This document shows positions 25,859-34,547 of a stretch of DNA of 64,000 nucleotides, one piece after another. Position 1 is the first letter of the stretch. Each line of letters begins with the position of its first letter. The position numbers and the translations under genes are program-made. This DNA comes from Rheinheimera sp. (GTDB lineage Bacteria; Pseudomonadota; Gammaproteobacteria; Enterobacterales; Alteromonadaceae). The stretch is taken from the NCBI RefSeq assembly GCF_030824435.1, contig NZ_JAVBXS010000095.1, forward strand, positions 1 through 64,000, read 5' to 3'. The notes under the pieces were generated by a model. The model saw nothing but the letters and a program-made list of their open reading frames with translations. It did not search any database and was not told the DNA's origin.

Positions 25859-26095
25859 GTCAGACGCAAAGTCTGACCCGCTGCATTTTTACGCCTAAAG
25901 TTTGCCTTTAAACTTCACGGTTATAAATCATTGTTTATAAACTAAAAAACTGACAGCACCTGCAAAACTACCACTTTATAGGTATCCATTCTGCGCAGTA
26001 TGGCTGTTGTAACTAACTCCTCAGTCTCATTGTGGCCTTGCTGCTGTGCCTGCATAGTTTCAGCGCACCTTTTGTGGGTTAGCTCGGAGTGGACT

Positions 26096-27712
26096 ATGTC
26101 GAATTTAAAACGTTGGGAGCCGGAAAACGAGACGTTCTGGCAACAGCAAGGCAGTAAAATTGCAAACCGGAACCTGTGGATCTCCATTCCCAGCCTGTTA
26201 TGTGGTTTTGGCGTCTGGATGCTGTGGAGTATTGTCACAGTACAAATGTTAAATGTGGGTTTTCCTTTTACCACCAGTGAGTTATTTACCTTAACCGCCA
26301 TTGCTGGTTTAACGGGCGCCACCTTACGTATTCCATCAAGCTTTTTTGTCCGGCTTTGTGGTGGCCGTTATACGCTGTTTTTAACCACAACTTTGTTGAT
26401 GATCCCGGCTGTGGGCACGGGTTTGGCGTTGCAGGATAAAAGCACCCCGCTGTGGGTATTTCAGCTGATGGCGTTGTTATCCGGTATTGGTGGTGGCAAT
26501 TTTGCTTCTTCCATGTCGAATATCAGCTTCTTTTTCCCGAAAAAACAACAAGGTTTGGCGTTGGGTTTAAATGCTGGCCTTGGCAATTTTGGTGTCACCA
26601 CAGTGCAGATTGCGGTGCCACTATTTATGTCTTATGGCGTGTTTTCACTGTTTGGCGCCGGTGACCCTATGGTGCTGGAAAAAGCCAGTGGTACTGTGAT
26701 TGGCACCATTGCTGCCGGCACTCAAACCTGGATCCAGAACTCCGGTTTTTCCTGGTTGATTACCTTAGTGCCGCTGGCGTTTTTATTGTGGTTTGGCACC
26801 AATAACCTAAACACTGAAGAAGTCACCCCCAAGCTGCCGGCAGCCCCGGTTTCTTTTGCCATTATTTTGTCGATGCTCGGTATTGGTTTTTTAACTTCTA
26901 TTGTTGGCCTCTGGCTGATGCTGCCACAAAATGCCAATGGTTCTGGTTTTGGCATTCCCAAAGAAATTGTCATTATTCTGGTGTTATTCAGCACTGTGAT
27001 GTTGTTAAAACTGCTGCCGGGCGCTATCCGCACCAGTTTAGACCGGCAATACAAAATTTTTAATAATAAACACACCTGGGTGATGAGTGTGTTGTACGTG
27101 ATGACCTTTGGCTCTTTTATCGGCTTTTCGGCGGCCTTTCCACTGTCGATTCAGGTGATTTTTGGCTATAGCCATATCATGGTGGACGGTGTGATGACCC
27201 ACACTACACCAAACCCTAATGGCCCAAGCGCGTTAACTTATGCCTGGATAGCACCTTTTATTGGCGCTTTAATCCGCCCTGTGGGTGGCTGGGTTGCCGA
27301 TAAAGTGGGTGGTGCTTTTGTCACCCAAATCTGTTCAGTGATCATGATTGTTTGTGCTTTAGGCGCGGCTTATTACATGCAGCTGGCTTATCAAAGCGCA
27401 ACACCAGAGCAATATTTTGTGCCTTGTTTCCTGATTTTCTTGGGTTTATTTGCCGCCAGCGGTATTGGCAACGGTTCCACCTTCAGAACCATAGCTGTGG
27501 TATTCCCTAAAGAACAGGCAGGCCCTGTGCTTGGCTGGACATCGGCAGTCGCAGCCTACGGTGCTTTTTATATTCCACAGGTTCTGGGTGAACAAATTAA
27601 AGCCGCCACGCCGGAATATGCCATGGTTGGTTTTGCCGCGTTTTACGCTTTATGTCTGGTATTAAACTGGTTCTTTTACCTGCGTAAATCAGGTGAGTTT
27701 TATAACCCATAA
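26096..27712 (+). CDS. narK: Nitrate/nitrite transporter NarK (E. coli-like subgroup)
   Basis: A 538-residue major facilitator of the nitrate/nitrite porter family. The N-terminus (RWEPENETFWQQQGSKIANR, NLWISIPSLL) closely follows E. coli NarK. Nitrate signature 1 is GLNAGLGNFGVTTVQ, and signature 2 is GWTSAVAAYGAFYIP. The substrate arginines of TM2 and TM8 are represented in ATLRIPSSF and ALIRPVGGW. It is longer than E. coli NarK (463), with extra loop sequence between TM5 and TM8. The ATG at 26096 has CGGAG upstream and begins the conserved part. Divergent from narL; a terminator follows. Confidence 0.93.
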   Translation: MSNLKRWEPENETFWQQQGSKIANRNLWISIPSLLCGFGVWMLWSIVTVQMLNVGFPFTTSELFTLTAIAGLTGATLRIPSSFFVRLCGGRYTLFLTTTLLMIPAVGTGLALQDKSTPLWVFQLMALLSGIGGGNFASSMSNISFFFPKKQQGLALGLNAGLGNFGVTTVQIAVPLFMSYGVFSLFGAGDPMVLEKASGTVIGTIAAGTQTWIQNSGFSWLITLVPLAFLLWFGTNNLNTEEVTPKLPAAPVSFAIILSMLGIGFLTSIVGLWLMLPQNANGSGFGIPKEIVIILVLFSTVMLLKLLPGAIRTSLDRQYKIFNNKHTWVMSVLYVMTFGSFIGFSAAFPLSIQVIFGYSHIMVDGVMTHTTPNPNGPSALTYAWIAPFIGALIRPVGGWVADKVGGAFVTQICSVIMIVCALGAAYYMQLAYQSATPEQYFVPCFLIFLGLFAASGIGNGSTFRTIAVVFPKEQAGPVLGWTSAVAAYGAFYIPQVLGEQIKAATPEYAMVGFAAFYALCLVLNWFFYLRKSGEFYNP

Positions 27713-27835: not shown

Positions 27836-28840
27836 TCAGATAAACATATGGGCAAAGGCATTAAACAACAAGCCAATCACAACAATGCCGCAGACCACAA
27901 TGCCAACAAACAACAGTAACAACGGCAGTTTAATCACTTTTTTCAGCATGATTAACGATGGCAAAGATAAAGCGGTCACCGACATCATAAAAGCCAGTGC
28001 AGTGCCAAGCCCTACCCCTTTACTGACCAAAGCTTCAGCAACAGGTAAGGTACCAAAGATATCGGCATACATAGGCACACCAATCAAAGTTGCCACAAAA
28101 ACCGACCACCAGTTGTCCTGCCCCAGCACCGAAGTCACCCAGGCTTGTGGCAGCCAGTTATGAATAGCTGCGCCAATAGCCACACCAAGCAGCACATAAA
28201 ACCAAACCCGCTGAAAAATATCGGCCACCTGGGCTTTGGCATAATCAAAACGGTCTTTGCGGCTAAGCTCTGCCTGCGGTATATCCAGCACAGGGCTGTG
28301 CAGTACAAAAGATTCTACATAACGACTCATATTGGCTTTGCTGATCAAAGTGCCGCCAATCACCGCCAGCACTATACCCACCAGCACATAAGCAATGGCA
28401 ATAGACCAGTTAAAAATGCTGGCCAATAAAATCACCGACGCCAGATCAACCAAAGGTGACGAAATTAAAAACGAAAAAGTCACCCCAAGCGGCAAACCCG
28501 CGCTGCTAAAACCAATAAAAAGCGGAATGGAAGAACAAGAGCAAAATGGTGTGATAGTGCCCATCAAAGCGCCGGTGAGATTTGCTTTAAAACCACGCAT
28601 ACCACCCAGAATTTTTCTGGTGCGCTGTGGTGGAAAATAACTTTGTAGCCAGGATACAGTAAAAATAAGCACAGCCAACAATATAAAAATTTTGATCACG
28701 TCATAAATAAAAAAATGCAGACTGGCGCCCCAACGCGACTGCATCGACAAACCAAAAACATCTTCCACCAGCATTTTGACTACATCAGCTAACCACTGCA
28801 TTTTCAGCAGCTGGTTATTCAGCCAGCTCCAAACCTCCAT
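27836..28840 (-). CDS. ArsP/DUF318-family permease
   Basis: A 334-residue membrane protein of the permease family PF03773, with about eight to ten membrane segments. The hallmark GTITPFCSCSSIPLFIGF contains the CSCSS cysteine cluster. PSLIMLKKVIKLPLLLLF lies near the end. Members such as ArsP export trivalent organoarsenicals; others have unknown metal(loid) substrates. The ATG at 28840 has AAGGGG at good spacing; an ATG eight codons upstream has none. The gene is divergent from the ars operon and shares the palindromic regulatory region at 28884-28939, so co-regulation by the ArsR domain is likely. Confidence 0.87.
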   Translation of the reverse strand: MEVWSWLNNQLLKMQWLADVVKMLVEDVFGLSMQSRWGASLHFFIYDVIKIFILLAVLIFTVSWLQSYFPPQRTRKILGGMRGFKANLTGALMGTITPFCSCSSIPLFIGFSSAGLPLGVTFSFLISSPLVDLASVILLASIFNWSIAIAYVLVGIVLAVIGGTLISKANMSRYVESFVLHSPVLDIPQAELSRKDRFDYAKAQVADIFQRVWFYVLLGVAIGAAIHNWLPQAWVTSVLGQDNWWSVFVATLIGVPMYADIFGTLPVAEALVSKGVGLGTALAFMMSVTALSLPSLIMLKKVIKLPLLLLFVGIVVCGIVVIGLLFNAFAHMFI

Positions 28841-28882
28841 TTGTATCCCCTTATGTTGCCGCATGCAGTTTTAAGCATAGCA

Positions 28883-28910
28883 TTGACATATGAAAAAACA
28901 TATATATCAT
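28883..28910 (+). promoter_or_regulatory. Sigma70-type promoter of the ars operon
   Basis: A consensus -35 TTGACA (28883-28888), a 16-bp spacer and a -10 TATCAT (28905-28910) stand just before the ArsC-ArsR fusion gene. Both elements lie inside the left arm of the palindromic operator, as expected for ArsR-type repression. Confidence 0.75.
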
Positions 28911-28939
28911 AAATGATATATATGGAGAAACATATGTTA
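28884..28939. promoter_or_regulatory. 56-bp near-perfect palindrome, putative ArsR operator
   Basis: Two 27-bp arms (28884-28910 and 28913-28939) around a 2-bp centre are complementary except for an inner 6-bp block and one outer base. Each arm holds ACATATG and CATATATATCAT elements, so the palindrome can also be read as two nested dyads. It covers the ars promoter and the Shine-Dalgarno of the first gene and lies 44 bp from the divergent permease start. Confidence 0.75.
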
Positions 28940-29725
28940 TCTATGCCTACTCTGATTTTTATTTGTACAGAAAACTCGGCCCGCTCGCTGATGGCTCAAG
29001 CCATTGCCCGCAGCCAGTATGCCAACAGGTTCGAGGTTTTTAGTGCGGGCAGTCAGCCAACTTACCCGGATCTCAGAGCGTTAGATGCTATAAAACGACA
29101 TGGTCTCTCCAGCGAAGGTTTAGCCTCAAAACCGTTGTCTGCTTTTGAAGAGACTGAGTTTGATTACGCCATAGTGTTATGCAGCAAAGCCCGGCAGGAG
29201 TGTCAGAAGGCGTTAAAAGCGCGGCATATTCTGGCATGGGATTTTCCGGATCCAAAAGAAACCGGCACCGCCAAAGCTTACGACACCACAATGAATGAGC
29301 TCAGCGAGCGGCTCAAGATGTTTGTGTTGCTCTATGATAAGTCTCAACACAACAATGCAATAAAGGTGGCAACTGACATGTCCCCCGTTGAATTTTTTAA
29401 ATTACTGGCCGACGAAACCCGCTTGTTTTCACTGTTACTGATTGCGCAGGAAGGTGAACTTTGTGTCTGTGAGTTGATGTCGGCATTGAGTGAATCACAA
29501 CCGAAAATTTCCCGGCACCTTGCCATGCTCAGAAGTGCCAGAGTATTGCTGGACCGCCGCCAGGGCCAATGGGTATTTTACCGGCTGAATCCGGAATTGC
29601 CTCAATGGGCCAGAGACACGCTGGAACAAACCAGAGCTCAGAATAGCGGATTGCTCACCCCCTTATTGAATAACCTTTGTGCCATGGGCGAAAGACCGGA
29701 GCGGGCAAAAGCCTGCTGCGCCTGA
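28934..29725 (+). CDS. Fusion of thioredoxin-type arsenate reductase (ArsC) and ArsR regulator
   Basis: A 263-residue two-domain protein. Residues 1-140 are a low-molecular-weight phosphatase/ArsC domain. The P-loop is C11-TENSA-R17, the resolving pair is C83 and C90 (LCSKARQEC, the spacing of S. aureus ArsC), and the general acid is D106 in FPDP. Residues 150-263 are an ArsR winged helix with the As(III)-binding motif ELCVCEL (C177, C179), the recognition helix QPKISRHLAML and a C-terminal CC. The ATG at 28934 follows GGAG; earlier ATGs lack a site. It heads the ars operon and probably autoregulates through the overlapping palindrome. Confidence 0.9.
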   Translation: MLSMPTLIFICTENSARSLMAQAIARSQYANRFEVFSAGSQPTYPDLRALDAIKRHGLSSEGLASKPLSAFEETEFDYAIVLCSKARQECQKALKARHILAWDFPDPKETGTAKAYDTTMNELSERLKMFVLLYDKSQHNNAIKVATDMSPVEFFKLLADETRLFSLLLIAQEGELCVCELMSALSESQPKISRHLAMLRSARVLLDRRQGQWVFYRLNPELPQWARDTLEQTRAQNSGLLTPLLNNLCAMGERPERAKACCA

Positions 29726-29760: not shown

Positions 29761-30261
29761 ATGAAAATTTTGTTTTTGTGTACCCATAACGCCTGTCGCA
29801 GCATTCTGGCAGAGGCGATTTTTCGCGCTGAAGCCCTTACAGCAGGGATGGATATCAAAGTGCAAAGTGCCGGCTCTGCGCCACGTGGTCAGGTGCATCC
29901 GTTAACACTGCAATATCTGAGCGCCAGCCATATCGACACCACAGAGCTTTACAGCAAAAGCTGGGATGATTTGGCAGATTATGCACCGGATCTGGTGATC
30001 ACTGTTTGTGATCAAGCCGCCGGAGAGTCCTGCCCGGTTTGGTTTGGTAACGCAGTGAAAGCACACTGGTCGCTGCCAGACCCCAGCCGGGCCACCCTGA
30101 GTCCAGGTGCACAACAACAAGAATTTGCAGCTTTGCACCAGGCGCTGCAACAACGTGCCAAAGCATTGTTTCAGGCGACAACAACCCCTGACAGCACAAT
30201 GTTATCGGCCATAGCTACAAGTTTTCCGTTGCAACTTGCCGGTTCTTTCCCGTCAAACTGA
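29761..30261 (+). CDS. arsC: Arsenate reductase, thioredoxin-coupled ArsC
   Basis: A 166-residue LMW-phosphatase-fold arsenate reductase. P-loop C7-THNAC-R13, redox pair C83 and C91 (VCDQAAGESC), and HWSLPDPS with the general acid D107. It reduces As(V) to As(III) using thioredoxin. The ATG at 29761 follows GGAG and starts MKILFLCTHNACRS; upstream codons in frame overlap the preceding gene and have no counterpart. It is the second ArsC module of the operon. The C-terminal about 25 residues extend beyond the usual domain. Confidence 0.93.
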   Translation: MKILFLCTHNACRSILAEAIFRAEALTAGMDIKVQSAGSAPRGQVHPLTLQYLSASHIDTTELYSKSWDDLADYAPDLVITVCDQAAGESCPVWFGNAVKAHWSLPDPSRATLSPGAQQQEFAALHQALQQRAKALFQATTTPDSTMLSAIATSFPLQLAGSFPSN

Positions 30262-30282: not shown

Positions 30283-31311
30283 GTGGGCATTTTTGAACGT
30301 TATTTATCTATTTGGGTTGCGCTGGCGATGGCCATGGGTGTGCTGGCCGGCTTGTGGCAGCCGGCCTGGTTTAGCCTGGTGGCGTCTTTTGAATATGCAC
30401 AGGTGAATGGTGTCATTGCGCTACTGATTTGGCTGATGATTTACCCCATGATGGTGCAGGTTGATTTTGCCGCTATCCGCGACGTTGGCAAAAAGCCAGC
30501 TGGTTTGCTGCTGACGCTGGTGATCAATTGGCTGATAAAACCCTTTACCATGGCGCTGCTGGGCTGGTTGTTTTTCCGGCTGTTGTTTGCCGATTGGGTT
30601 GACCCACAGACCGCCACTGAATATATCGCCGGGATGATTTTATTGGGTGTTGCACCTTGCACCGCTATGGTGTTTGTCTGGAGCCAGCTGACCAAAGGTG
30701 ACGCTAATTACACCCTGGTGCAGGTGTCGGTGAATGATCTGATCATGATTTTTGCGTTTGCCCCTATCAGCGCCTGGCTGCTTGGGGTGTCCGATATCAC
30801 AGTGCCCTGGTCGACTTTATTGTTGTCCGTTGTACTTTATGTGGTATTGCCGCTGCTGGCTGGGGTGCTGACCCGCCGTTATCTGGCAAACCGCTCTTTG
30901 TCCGGCGAAGACGCTATCCGCTCTTTTGCGGCACAGATTAAACCCTGGTCGGTCTTTGGTTTATTGGCAACAGTGGTGCTGTTATTTGGCTTTCAGGCAC
31001 AAACCATTCTCAGTCAGCCGCTGGCAATAGTGCTGATTGCCATCCCGTTATTGCTGCAAACCTATGGCATTTTTGCCCTGAGTTATTTTGTTGGCTGCAA
31101 ACTCAAACTGCCACACAACATTGCCGCCCCTGCCGGCATGATTGGCGCCAGTAACTTCTTTGAACTGGCTGTTGCTGTGGCTATTTCATTGTTTGGCCTG
31201 CATTCAGGGGCTGCACTTGCCACAGTAGTGGGTGTACTGGTCGAAGTGCCGGTTATGTTGTCGCTGGTGTGGTTTGCCAATCGCACCCGTCACTGGTTTG
31301 CCAATGCATAA
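30283..31311 (+). CDS. acr3: Arsenite efflux transporter Acr3
   Basis: A 342-residue inner-membrane arsenite antiporter of the Acr3/BART family with ten membrane segments. Family signatures include [15 protein letters not shown], with the essential Cys in TM4, [12 protein letters not shown], and [21 protein letters not shown]. The start is GTG at 30283 with AAGGAG upstream; the overlapping ATG two bases earlier is in another frame. It exports the arsenite produced by the two ArsC modules. Confidence 0.95.
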
Positions 31312-31341
31312 AGCTTTCACTGAGCTGATAAAGGAATTGTG

Positions 31342-31848
31342 ATGACCCATCCGTATAACCTGTTACCACTGGAGCCGCACAAGCCTGCCGGCCTTATTTT
31401 TACGCCCTGCCCCGGCACTAAAGGCACATCGGTGGACGATGCCCTGACCACACTGCAACAAGCGGGTGCAACGGCGCTTATCACACTGATGCCTCAAGCC
31501 GAGCTGGAAGCGCATCAGGCTGCCACTTTGGCTGAACATTGCGCCGCCAAAGGCTTATGGTGGTTTCACTGCCCTATTGCTGACGACGAAGCACCGGCGG
31601 CGGATTTTACCAAAACCTGGCAACAGGCTGGTGCGCAGGTGCATCAGCTGTTGTCAGCAGGGAAAACAGTAGCAATCCACTGTAAAGGTGGTTCGGGTCG
31701 TACCGGCTTAATAGCGGCGCAAATTCTGTTGGAGCGTGGTGAACCACAAGATGTTGTACAACACAAAGTGCAGGCGATTAGGCCTTATGCCTTAACCTTG
31801 CCTGCACATGTCGCTTATTTTCAACAAGTTGCGGAGACTCAATCATGA
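31342..31848 (+). CDS. CX5R protein-tyrosine/dual-specificity-like phosphatase in ars operon
   Basis: A 168-residue cysteine-dependent phosphatase fold with signature HCKGGSGRTG (C114 to R120) and a candidate general acid in PIADDEAPA (residues 79-86). It resembles small bacterial dual-specificity/CDKN3-like phosphatases rather than ArsC. It has no second conserved Cys pair placed like ArsC. The ATG at 31342 has AAGGA; its stop overlaps the next start (ATGA), so it is clearly part of the ars operon. The role is unknown: dephosphorylation of an operon-related metabolite, a third reductase activity, or a regulatory phosphatase are all open. Confidence 0.85.
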   Translation: MTHPYNLLPLEPHKPAGLIFTPCPGTKGTSVDDALTTLQQAGATALITLMPQAELEAHQAATLAEHCAAKGLWWFHCPIADDEAPAADFTKTWQQAGAQVHQLLSAGKTVAIHCKGGSGRTGLIAAQILLERGEPQDVVQHKVQAIRPYALTLPAHVAYFQQVAETQS

Positions 31849-32097: not shown

Positions 32098-33117
32098 ATG
32101 AGCATTAAAGTAGGTATTAACGGTTTTGGCCGTATCGGCCGGTTAGCTTTGCGCGCCGCTTTTGACTGGCCTGAATTTGAGTTTGTACAAATTAACGACC
32201 CGGCCGGCGACGCCGCCACTTTTGCCCATCTGCTGAATTTTGACTCAGTGCATGGCCGCTGGCTGCATCAGGCAGAAGCTCTGGGTAATCAAGTCGTTAT
32301 CAACGGCAAAATGATTGCGGTTAGCCATCACAAAAATATCAATGACACCGACTGGTCAGGTTGTGATCTGGTGCTTGAATGTTCCGGCAAAATGAAAAGC
32401 AAAGCCGTGTTGCAGGCGTATCTGACTCAGGGCGTCAAACGGGTGGTGGTCAGTGCGCCGGTAAAAGAGCTTGGTGTGCTGAATGTGGTGATGGGCGTGA
32501 ATCATCAGCTTTTTGATGCAGCAAAACACCAGATAGTGACAGCCGCCAGCTGCACCACCAACTGTTTAGCCCCTGTGGTCAAAGTAATTCATGAAAACCT
32601 CGGCATTAAACATGGTGCTATCACCACTATTCACGACTTAACCAACACCCAGTCGATTTTGGATACCCCGCACAAAGATTTACGTCGCGCCCGCGCCTGT
32701 GGCAGCAGTTTAATTCCAACCACCACGGGTTCAGCCACAGCTATTACCGAAATTTTCCCAGAGCTTAAAGGCCGGTTAAATGGCCATGCGGTGCGGGTGC
32801 CGCTGGCCAATGCCTCCCTCACCGACTGTGTGTTTGAAGTGGAACGCGCCACCACAGCCGAAGAAGTCAATGCTTTACTCAAAGCCGCGGCTGAAGGTGA
32901 ACTGAAAAACATCTTAGGTTATGAAGAGCGGCCTTTGGTGTCGGTGGATTATAAAACTGACCCACGCTCCAGCGTTATTGATGCTTTGTCGACCATGGTG
33001 GTGAACGGCACCCAGGTTAAAATTTACGCCTGGTACGACAACGAATGGGGTTACGCCAACCGCACTGTGGAACTGGCGCTGCTGGTGGGCCGGGCAGGTG
33101 AAGGCTTTCCGGTTTAA
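32098..33117 (+). CDS. ars-operon glyceraldehyde-3-phosphate dehydrogenase
   Basis: A 339-residue GAPDH. The NAD-binding [17 protein letters not shown] stands at the N-terminus, the catalytic Cys152 in [11 protein letters not shown], and [15 protein letters not shown] near the C-terminus. In ars operons carrying arsJ, this enzyme adds arsenate to glyceraldehyde-3-phosphate, giving unstable 1-arseno-3-phosphoglycerate that ArsJ exports. The position directly before arsJ supports that role rather than glycolysis. ATG at 32098 with AGAGGA; an in-frame TTG just before is unlikely. Confidence 0.92.
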
Positions 33118-33305: not shown

Positions 33306-34547
33306 ATGTCTGCATTAGCGGCCAACGCTGGCCTGAAACAATATCTGCTGGTCACCGGCAATTATTGGGCTTTTACTCTGACCGACGGCGCTTTGCGCAT
33401 GCTAATAGTGCTGCATTTTTATACGCTGGGTTATAGCCCGCTCGCCATTGCTTCGTTGTTTTTGTTTTATGAGTTTTTTGGTGTCGTCACCAACTTAGTG
33501 GGCGGCTGGCTGGGTGCCCGTATTGGCCTGAATAAAACCATGCATATTGGCCTGCTGCTGCAGGTGCTGGCGCTTGCCATGTTGCTGGTGCCAGCCTCTA
33601 TGTTGACAGTGGTTTGGGTGATGGCAGCGCAGGCGCTGTCTGGTATTGCCAAAGACCTCAACAAAATGAGTGCCAAAAGTTCACTCAAACTGCTGTTGCC
33701 AGACAATGCCCAGAGCGCTTTGTATCAATGGGTAGCGATTTTAACCGGCTCTAAAAATGCACTGAAAGGCGTTGGTTTTTTCCTCGGCGGCTTATTACTC
33801 AGCCTTTGGGGTTTTCAGGGCGCTGTTGCTGCCATGGCCGGCGCACTGGCGCTTATCTGGCTGCTGAGCTTGGTGCTTTTGAAAAAAGACTTGGGCAAAA
33901 GTAGTTTTAAACCCAAATTTAAAGACTTGCTCTCCAAAAGTACCGCCATAAACAAACTGTCGGCAGCACGGCTGTTGTTATTTGGCGCCCGTGATGTCTG
34001 GTTTGTGATTGCATTGCCGCTGTATTTATCCAGCCATTTTTCCTGGAGCCAGGCCGAAGTGGGCGCTTTTCTGGCGTTTTGGGTGATAGCTTATGGCGCT
34101 GTACAGGCTTTTGCCCCGGCCATTACCGGCCGCAGCTCTGGCCGTCAAAGTGGCAACAACAGCACACCGGATGCCACCACGGCTTTGCACTGGGCCTTAT
34201 TACTTTGTGTTATTCCGGCACTGCTAAGCTTTGCTCTGGTGTACAGCAACAGTGCAATCTGGGTGTTGATTGTTGGCCTGTTGTTATTTGGCGCTGTTTT
34301 TGCGGTGAATTCGTCTTTGCACAGTTATCTGATTGTAAGCATGGCCGGCCGTGATGGCGTATCGCTTGATGTAGGTTTTTATTATATGGCCAACGCCATG
34401 GGCCGGCTGATTGGCACGCTGTTATCGGGCTGGGTCTATCAGGCTTATGGGTTTTACGCTTGCCTCTGGGTGTCCAGCGCTTTTTTACTTGGCACAGTGC
34501 TGGTGACCTGGCGTTTAAACAGCGCAGCAAAGGCCGCCGGGCAGTAA
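33306..34547 (+). CDS. arsJ: Organoarsenical (1-arseno-3-phosphoglycerate) exporter ArsJ
   Basis: A 413-residue major facilitator with 12 membrane segments matching the ArsJ subgroup: GNYWAFTLTDGALRMLIVLH at the N-terminus, EFFGVVTNLVGGWLGARIGL, and SGIAKDLNKMSAKSS. Paired with the upstream GAPDH it completes arsenate detoxification through 1-arseno-3-phosphoglycerate. ATG at 33306 follows GGGAA; the seven codons upstream in frame are not conserved. It is separated from gapdh by 188 bp with possible RNA structure. Confidence 0.93.
   Translation: MSALAANAGLKQYLLVTGNYWAFTLTDGALRMLIVLHFYTLGYSPLAIASLFLFYEFFGVVTNLVGGWLGARIGLNKTMHIGLLLQVLALAMLLVPASMLTVVWVMAAQALSGIAKDLNKMSAKSSLKLLLPDNAQSALYQWVAILTGSKNALKGVGFFLGGLLLSLWGFQGAVAAMAGALALIWLLSLVLLKKDLGKSSFKPKFKDLLSKSTAINKLSAARLLLFGARDVWFVIALPLYLSSHFSWSQAEVGAFLAFWVIAYGAVQAFAPAITGRSSGRQSGNNSTPDATTALHWALLLCVIPALLSFALVYSNSAIWVLIVGLLLFGAVFAVNSSLHSYLIVSMAGRDGVSLDVGFYYMANAMGRLIGTLLSGWVYQAYGFYACLWVSSAFLLGTVLVTWRLNSAAKAAGQ

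Follow-up and report, generated by a model that had tools for sequence, protein, structure and literature searches.

In the window, the whole 64,000-nucleotide stretch of DNA analyzed here, an ars operon begins with a gene that joins an arsenate reductase (ArsC) to an ArsR repressor. This fusion gene (28934–29725, plus strand) encodes 263 amino acids and is delineated by its open reading frame, Pfam, NCBIfam and AlphaFold2. The gene order on this strand is fusion-arsC-acr3-phosphatase-GAPDH-arsJ, with arsP on the opposite strand. The separate ArsC next door (29761–30261, +), mentioned in the preliminary description, is real. It has the LMW fold with a C-X7-C pair and falls in another clade than the fused domain, as judged from Pfam and the ArsC tree. 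It is followed by the arsenite exporter Acr3 (30283–31311, +; TIGR00832, 408.9 vs 282.8), a dual-specificity-type (DSP) phosphatase (31339–31848, +; Pfam), an ArsJ-associated GAPDH (32098–33117, +; NF033735, 584.6 vs 450) and the ArsJ transporter (33306–34547, +; NF033734, 596.3 vs 400). The last two are both above cut-off, which qualifies the operon as one of the GAPDH/ArsJ type. The divergent gene (27836–28864, minus strand) encodes an ArsP-family permease (PF03773, 228.9 bits). A homologue of NarK-type nitrate/nitrite transporters (26000–27712), scoring under the NCBIfam cut-offs, adjoins the ars cluster.

The phosphatase may be called VarH-like, a name that reflects operon position and fold class only; VarH itself is given as a DSP-superfamily PTP in the excerpted text of its report (PMC9601151). 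The operon phosphatase also matches PF22785, a Pfam model named after polymorphic toxin systems. The operon context points to arsenate resistance and not to a toxin system.

Upstream of the fusion, a promoter-like sequence, TTGACA-16-TATCAT (28883–28910, +), agrees with 11 of 12 consensus positions. A perfect palindrome recognized by its arms, CATATATATCAT-AA-ATGATATATATG (28899–28924, no strand assigned), extends across the −10 box and is the likely operator. Its inner arms of 12 nt are perfect, and imperfect arms continue to 25 nt. As a single-strand hairpin the region has a z of −4.9 vs shuffles, a value that here reflects the palindrome itself. Related CATATATGA..CATATATG half-sites after a TTGACA also occur upstream in genomes G083, G045, G097 and G063, whether ArsR is fused or not. 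An overlapping promoter-like match on the minus strand reaches 9/12, but shuffled sequences yield 0.8 on average. The uninterrupted reading frame of the fusion is 28913–29725 (+). We prefer 28934 as its probable start over the longer start at 28913, because GGAG (28924–28927) sits 6 nt ahead of the former and the latter lies inside the operator palindrome.

Architecture and conservation of the ArsC-ArsR fusion

The N-terminal ArsC domain covers residues 1–140 (28934–29353, +). Pfam LMWPc matches residues 8–130 with 65.6 bits (cut-off 23.2) and each of 36 aligned fusions matched it with an E of 0.001 or less. A flexible linker, residues 141–148 (29354–29377, +), leads to the C-terminal ArsR domain, residues 149–263 (29378–29722, +) with a core at about 149–248. 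HTH_5 matches residues 160–203 of this half (40.7 bits, cut-off 22), which also scores above the NCBIfam cut-offs of NF007528 (125.4 vs 97) and NF033788 (88.4 vs 55). The preliminary description had placed ArsC in front of ArsR with both active sites intact. The domain order is borne out by the single frame, the LMWPc and HTH_5 matches and 114 homologous fusions, and the P-loop, the resolving Cys pair, the general acid and the ArsR CxC are all present in the window protein. The single open frame and the 114 homologous fusions also rule out an assembly artefact or a frameshift.

The AlphaFold2 model of the fusion has a mean pLDDT of 90.5. Residues 142–146 of the linker are the sole reported stretch below 50, and the final blocks of the model are also low. 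The pTM is 0.59 and the domain-domain geometry is not fixed by the model. A structure search, whose rows concern the N-domain alone (the identity of the ArsR domain rests on sequence), superposed this domain on pI258 ArsC (1jf8) with a Z of 20.4 and an rmsd of 1.3 over 126 residues. The top phosphotyrosine phosphatase had a Z of 17.5, behind ArsC, and from this ranking we judge a phosphatase instead of ArsC less likely.

The active-site assignments draw on conservation among the fusions. The P-loop CTENSARS, residues 11–18 (28964–28987, +), contains the nucleophile C11 together with R17 and S18. C83-X6-C90 (29180–29203, +) is the presumed resolving Cys pair, and D106-P107 (29249–29254, +) the presumed general acid. 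In the alignment with B. subtilis ArsC (1jl3), the Cys spacing is identical and a DP occupies the matching position; the Cys, Arg and DP positions of the fusion align with the ArsC sequences of solved structure. We assume that the CX5RS loop, the C-X6-C pair and the DP have the catalytic roles they have in pI258 ArsC. The ArsC half does not reach the cut-off of the ArsC equivalog TIGR02691 (47.0 vs 174.3, NCBIfam), and judging from its sequence it would be pI258-like in its working and not filed under this equivalog. In the ArsR half, C177-V-C179 (29462–29470, +) is the presumed As(III) site, and the CxC begins helix α3 in the model (strand 175–177, helix 178–185). ArsR of the E. coli type has a third Cys that is not essential there; it is absent from the fused ArsR, with Met at 182.

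We collected and aligned 114 distinct homologous fusion ORFs, including that of the window, and they are about 41–59% identical to the window protein over the full length. The fusion is present in all of the best 80 of 523 loci of a genome scan, a selection biased to close relatives. All seven key residues are kept in 97 of the 114 fusions. N14 and W102 are found in all 114, R17, S18 and P107 in 113 each, C83 and C90 in 112 each and C11 in 111; at position 106, 102 fusions have D and 7 have E. On the ArsR side, C177 is kept in 114/114 and C179 in 113/114. The length of the linker differs widely between fusions. The median dN/dS (NG86, 74 pairs) is 0.087 for the ArsC part (maximum 0.22); the ArsR part has 0.056. 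Since the residues are conserved and dN/dS is well below 1, catalysis besides the fold is under selection in most fusions. Nine fusions (9/114, with Glu accepted as the acid) are missing one or more of the five catalytic residues, and all nine have an intact ArsR Cys pair. Ser replaces the nucleophile Cys in three fusions (L091, L090 and L208), again with the ArsR CxC intact; in L208 (genome G039), four of the five catalytic residues are gone.

Relatives, gene context and history of the fusion

A survey of domain order yielded the 114 distinct ArsC-first fusions, and the opposite order in L258. Across 398 genomes sampled from the phylum, all matches spanning both domains, among the matches listed, belong to the class of the window. 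The ArsR-first fusion of L258 (1404–2390, −) comes from another class of the phylum and has an ArsC of the arsC2 type, so that the two fusion orders look independent. A tree of 65 ArsC domains, built by a quick method with 44 of the 113 other fusions sampled, splits the fused and arsR-adjacent ArsC (N-type) by a branch with a support of 99 from 11 arsC2-type rows. One separate ArsC labelled arsC2 (L260), on a long branch, is placed on the N-type side. The separate ArsC of the window operon (29761–30261) belongs to the non-N-type clade. Among eight sampled unfused N-type ArsC, six directly precede arsR (G097, G081, G042, G528, G428 and G554), and the two genes overlap by 4 nt in G528, G428 and G554, as counted from mechanical ORF starts. 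The unfused N-type L259 and L266 were not seen beside arsR, and L259 is without the second Cys.

Within the window's family, 124 of the 196 genomes surveyed have ArsJ. In the 6 kb upstream, 49 of the 125 arsJ loci have a fusion, 3 a split arsC-arsR pair and 48 a lone ArsR; 25 loci in which no regulator was found, some of them at contig ends, were omitted from the comparison, and the window was added manually to the table. The acr3 gene is present at 31/49 fusion, 2/3 split and 5/48 lone-ArsR loci. Fusion and split loci together differ from lone-ArsR loci (33/52 vs 5/48; Fisher p 3e-8, kinship ignored). The link is not significant with kinship considered: there are four independent pairs, two of them agreeing, with a mean of 0.1 against and a median p of 0.5. 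A separate LMW ArsC occurs at 1/49 fusion arsJ loci, the window itself, and at 1/3 split and 0/48 lone-ArsR loci, which rules it out as a general companion of the fusion (1/49). Where a fusion locus extends 5 kb or more downstream (75 loci), GAPDH/ArsJ follows in 70, acr3 in 45 and a separate LMW ArsC in 2, namely the window and L035; L051 has one too, in a locus too short for the count. Fusion operons keep all five catalytic residues in 42/45 cases with acr3 and in 27/30 without it.

The gap between the fusion and acr3 contains a gene of one type in seven loci (L034, L035, L041, L049, L051, L052 and L076), which we take by eye to be ArsH-like from a sequence motif. In L035 and L051 the gap also holds an LMW ArsC. 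A hidden reductase in this gap was rejected, as the seven loci show the ArsH-like gene, with an LMW ArsC in L035 and L051 alone.

An ArsR tree of 99 rows places the window with the lone ArsR of its congeners G083 and G045 (support 99/96), which are 88% and 87% identical to its ArsR part, respectively. Two further congeners, G137 and G176, have fusions with 59% identity to the window. A single origin of the fusion would sit poorly with this tree, which demands at least seven label changes, four of them forced by well-supported branches; having few columns and a bootstrap that is not settled, the tree does not distinguish gain from loss of the fusion. The ArsC of G097 is the nearest to the window N-domain (66%). 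In G097, arsC and arsR are two genes, followed by arsC2-acr3-phosphatase-GAPDH-arsJ, as ordered in the window. The window gene either is a recent joining of a G097-like arsC-arsR pair or goes back to a fusion that was lost in the congeners.

An SD-like site, AAGGTGG followed by 8 nt and ATG (29363–29380, +), marks a possible internal start at Met149. This Met aligns with the starts of the lone ArsR in G083 and G045 (MHPVEFF and MLPVEFF). Met occupies position 149 in 1/114 fusions, which rules out a conserved internal start as a family trait. A second, ArsR-only product from Met149 is possible on the basis of these sequence signals, apparently confined to the window lineage.

Proposed arsenate sensing and comparison with known systems

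We propose that the fusion is a regulator making its own ligand, with arsenate sensed by conversion in cis, and give this reading a probability of roughly one half. The N-terminal ArsC domain would reduce arsenate via a thioredoxin-type Cys relay, from C11 to C83-C90. The resulting arsenite would be taken up by C177/C179 of the attached ArsR dimer, and arsenite-loaded ArsR would come off the operator palindrome spanning the −10 box. This would induce ArsC, Acr3, the phosphatase, GAPDH and ArsJ, and perhaps the divergent arsP. Arsenate would thus be the inducer of an operon that exports arsenate (GAPDH/ArsJ) and arsenite (Acr3).

Arsenite is what most ArsR proteins sense. The CVC is kept by all 51 separate ArsR found at arsJ loci, so arsenite is the likely signal throughout, and a lone ArsR presumably responds to arsenite from another source. 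The genomes of the family all have a glutaredoxin-type ArsC homologue (TIGR00014; 196/196), in 193 of them above the curated cut-off. Its presence in every genome means that a lone ArsR is probably supplied with arsenite and that the fused domain is dispensable in principle. Despite this ubiquity, one glutaredoxin-type ArsC query matched 5 of 204 loci, four times upstream of the fusion, indicating that such genes seldom lie inside the operons themselves.

The exporters bear on the role of the fused enzyme. Acr3 was detected in 115/196 genomes and is missing from 15 fusion genomes. For ArsB, TIGR00935 matched none of 18 genomes, the 15 Acr3-free fusion genomes among them, and PF02040 matched 0/196 (strict E of 1e-40); this absence is weakened by the behaviour of the profiles, which are silent in the E. 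coli control and match B. subtilis or it and two others. In 14 of the 15 fusion genomes where neither exporter was detected, all five catalytic residues are retained. An intact reductase in such genomes favours a signal-making role. The conservation of a reductase whose product is seemingly without a pump, the pumps sought being Acr3 and ArsB, seems to be the best support for signalling; another kind of arsenite exporter in these genomes would weaken it. The separate N-type clade, whose unfused members are mostly found directly before arsR, also supports conversion in cis.

Several observations weaken conversion in cis. Forty-eight arsJ loci, two congeners included, run on ArsR alone; acr3 accompanies the fusion, as expected of a bulk reductase; and the nine fusions missing one or more catalytic residues, three of them without the nucleophile, keep the ArsR Cys. 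Nor would arsenite have to pass in cis simply because the two domains are covalently joined. The preliminary description had suggested that arsenate triggers induction through the fused reductase. The conserved sites, the low dN/dS and the 14/15 exporter-poor genomes speak for this suggestion, and the glutaredoxin-type ArsC in 196/196 genomes speaks against it. Its further argument, that the neighbouring ArsC leaves the fused domain to sensing and not to bulk reduction, stands in so far as the different clade of the neighbour fits a division of labour; it loses force with the rarity of such a neighbour (1/49) and the greater frequency of acr3 at fusions.

Alternatively, the fused domain may be a plain bulk reductase tied to the repressor, in which case the fusion sets dosage and autoregulation, and cytoplasmic As(III) of any source reaches ArsR. 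We regard this as possible rather than probable. The commoner acr3 at fusion and split than at lone-ArsR loci, the rarity of another LMW-type ArsC at fusion loci (1/49) and the purifying selection upon catalysis agree with it. The acr3 link is not significant once kinship is considered, however, and the window and G097 operons hold a second ArsC of the other clade. Catalysis is also kept in 14 of the 15 fusion genomes without detected Acr3/ArsB, and a repressor is a low-abundance site for a bulk enzyme. We prefer conversion in cis, with bulk reduction by the repressor-linked enzyme close behind. Where acr3 is present, the fused domain may add bulk reduction; where it is absent, signal-making would be likelier.

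Direct sensing, in which arsenate is a ligand of the N-domain, or As(V) is bound by ArsR itself, and no turnover is required, is improbable. It has precedents in the excerpted reports of TtSmtB of Thermus thermophilus, which answers arsenate better than arsenite (PMC5658604), and of the Vibrio cholerae var operon, arsenate-inducible yet described as non-reducing (PMC9601151). The resolving Cys, superfluous for binding, are nevertheless each kept in 112/114 fusions, and the ArsR CxC is retained in 113/114. That the N-domain is a phosphatase or redox switch tuning ArsR has very little to commend it beyond its place in the LMW-phosphatase superfamily, given that ArsC structures outrank phosphatases (Z 20.4 vs 17.5) and that both the C-X6-C pair and the genes of the operon are typical of arsenic resistance.

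Conversion in cis, as the preferred reading, leads to a tentative generalization. The fusions may form a gammaproteobacterial family in which an enzyme domain makes the ligand of its fused repressor, for signalling only in genomes without Acr3/ArsB, and with the window lineage perhaps adding a Met149 product. How GAPDH/ArsJ operons notice arsenate would be simply explained by a repressor with a reductase attached. If so, arsenate, read as on-site arsenite, controls operons whose ArsJ exporter disposes of arsenate, C11 matters to induction by arsenate and not by arsenite, and the domains may serve as arsenate-selective biosensor parts. The lone, split and fused ArsR forms in one genus and its neighbours, together with the nucleophile-less variants, allow a practical comparison.

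The fused domain resembles the thioredoxin-coupled ArsC of pI258 and B. subtilis in its fold, CX5R loop, C-X6-C pair and DP, but it is under the TIGR02691 cut-off and joined to a repressor. The window operon is similar to the V. cholerae var operon, in which an ArsR repressor controls GAPDH, ArsJ and a phosphatase of the DSP type. In the excerpted report, the var ArsR is not described as fused, one Cys of its As(III) site is said to be lost and no acr3 is present, unlike in the window; arsenate induces the operon, and how it is sensed is left open by the authors (PMC9601151). The congeners G083 and G045 (L113 and L114) have an arsJ operon with a lone ArsR and no Acr3 or ArsB match in the genome, and these operons pose the same puzzle as the var operon. 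TtSmtB shares with the fusion an ArsR-family repressor and a response to arsenate, which for the fusion is proposed; according to the same partial account, TtSmtB binds arsenate directly and its reductase gene is separate (PMC5658604).

The closest known proteins are the ArsR-ArsC (ArsRC) fusions. The sections of the literature drawn on here report them in Leptospirillum ferriphilum, Microbacterium and Sinorhizobium, where working fusions could aid arsenite sensing and/or detoxification according to a review (PMC6205960), and in the Actinobacteria clusters C4 and C7 (PMC6514093). The arsRC of L. ferriphilum is said to act as both, responding to As(III) shock (PMC4443643). As described there, these proteins share with the window the combination of ArsR and an LMW-type ArsC in a single polypeptide and the ars operon. 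They differ in that the window has ArsC first, while their names suggest an ArsR-first order. No ArsC-first fusion heading GAPDH/ArsJ operons was recognized in the open-licence literature, subscription papers being mostly outside this scope. The ArsR-ArsC fusion is thus known in kind, and what is new here is the ArsC-first order, the clade and the operon context.
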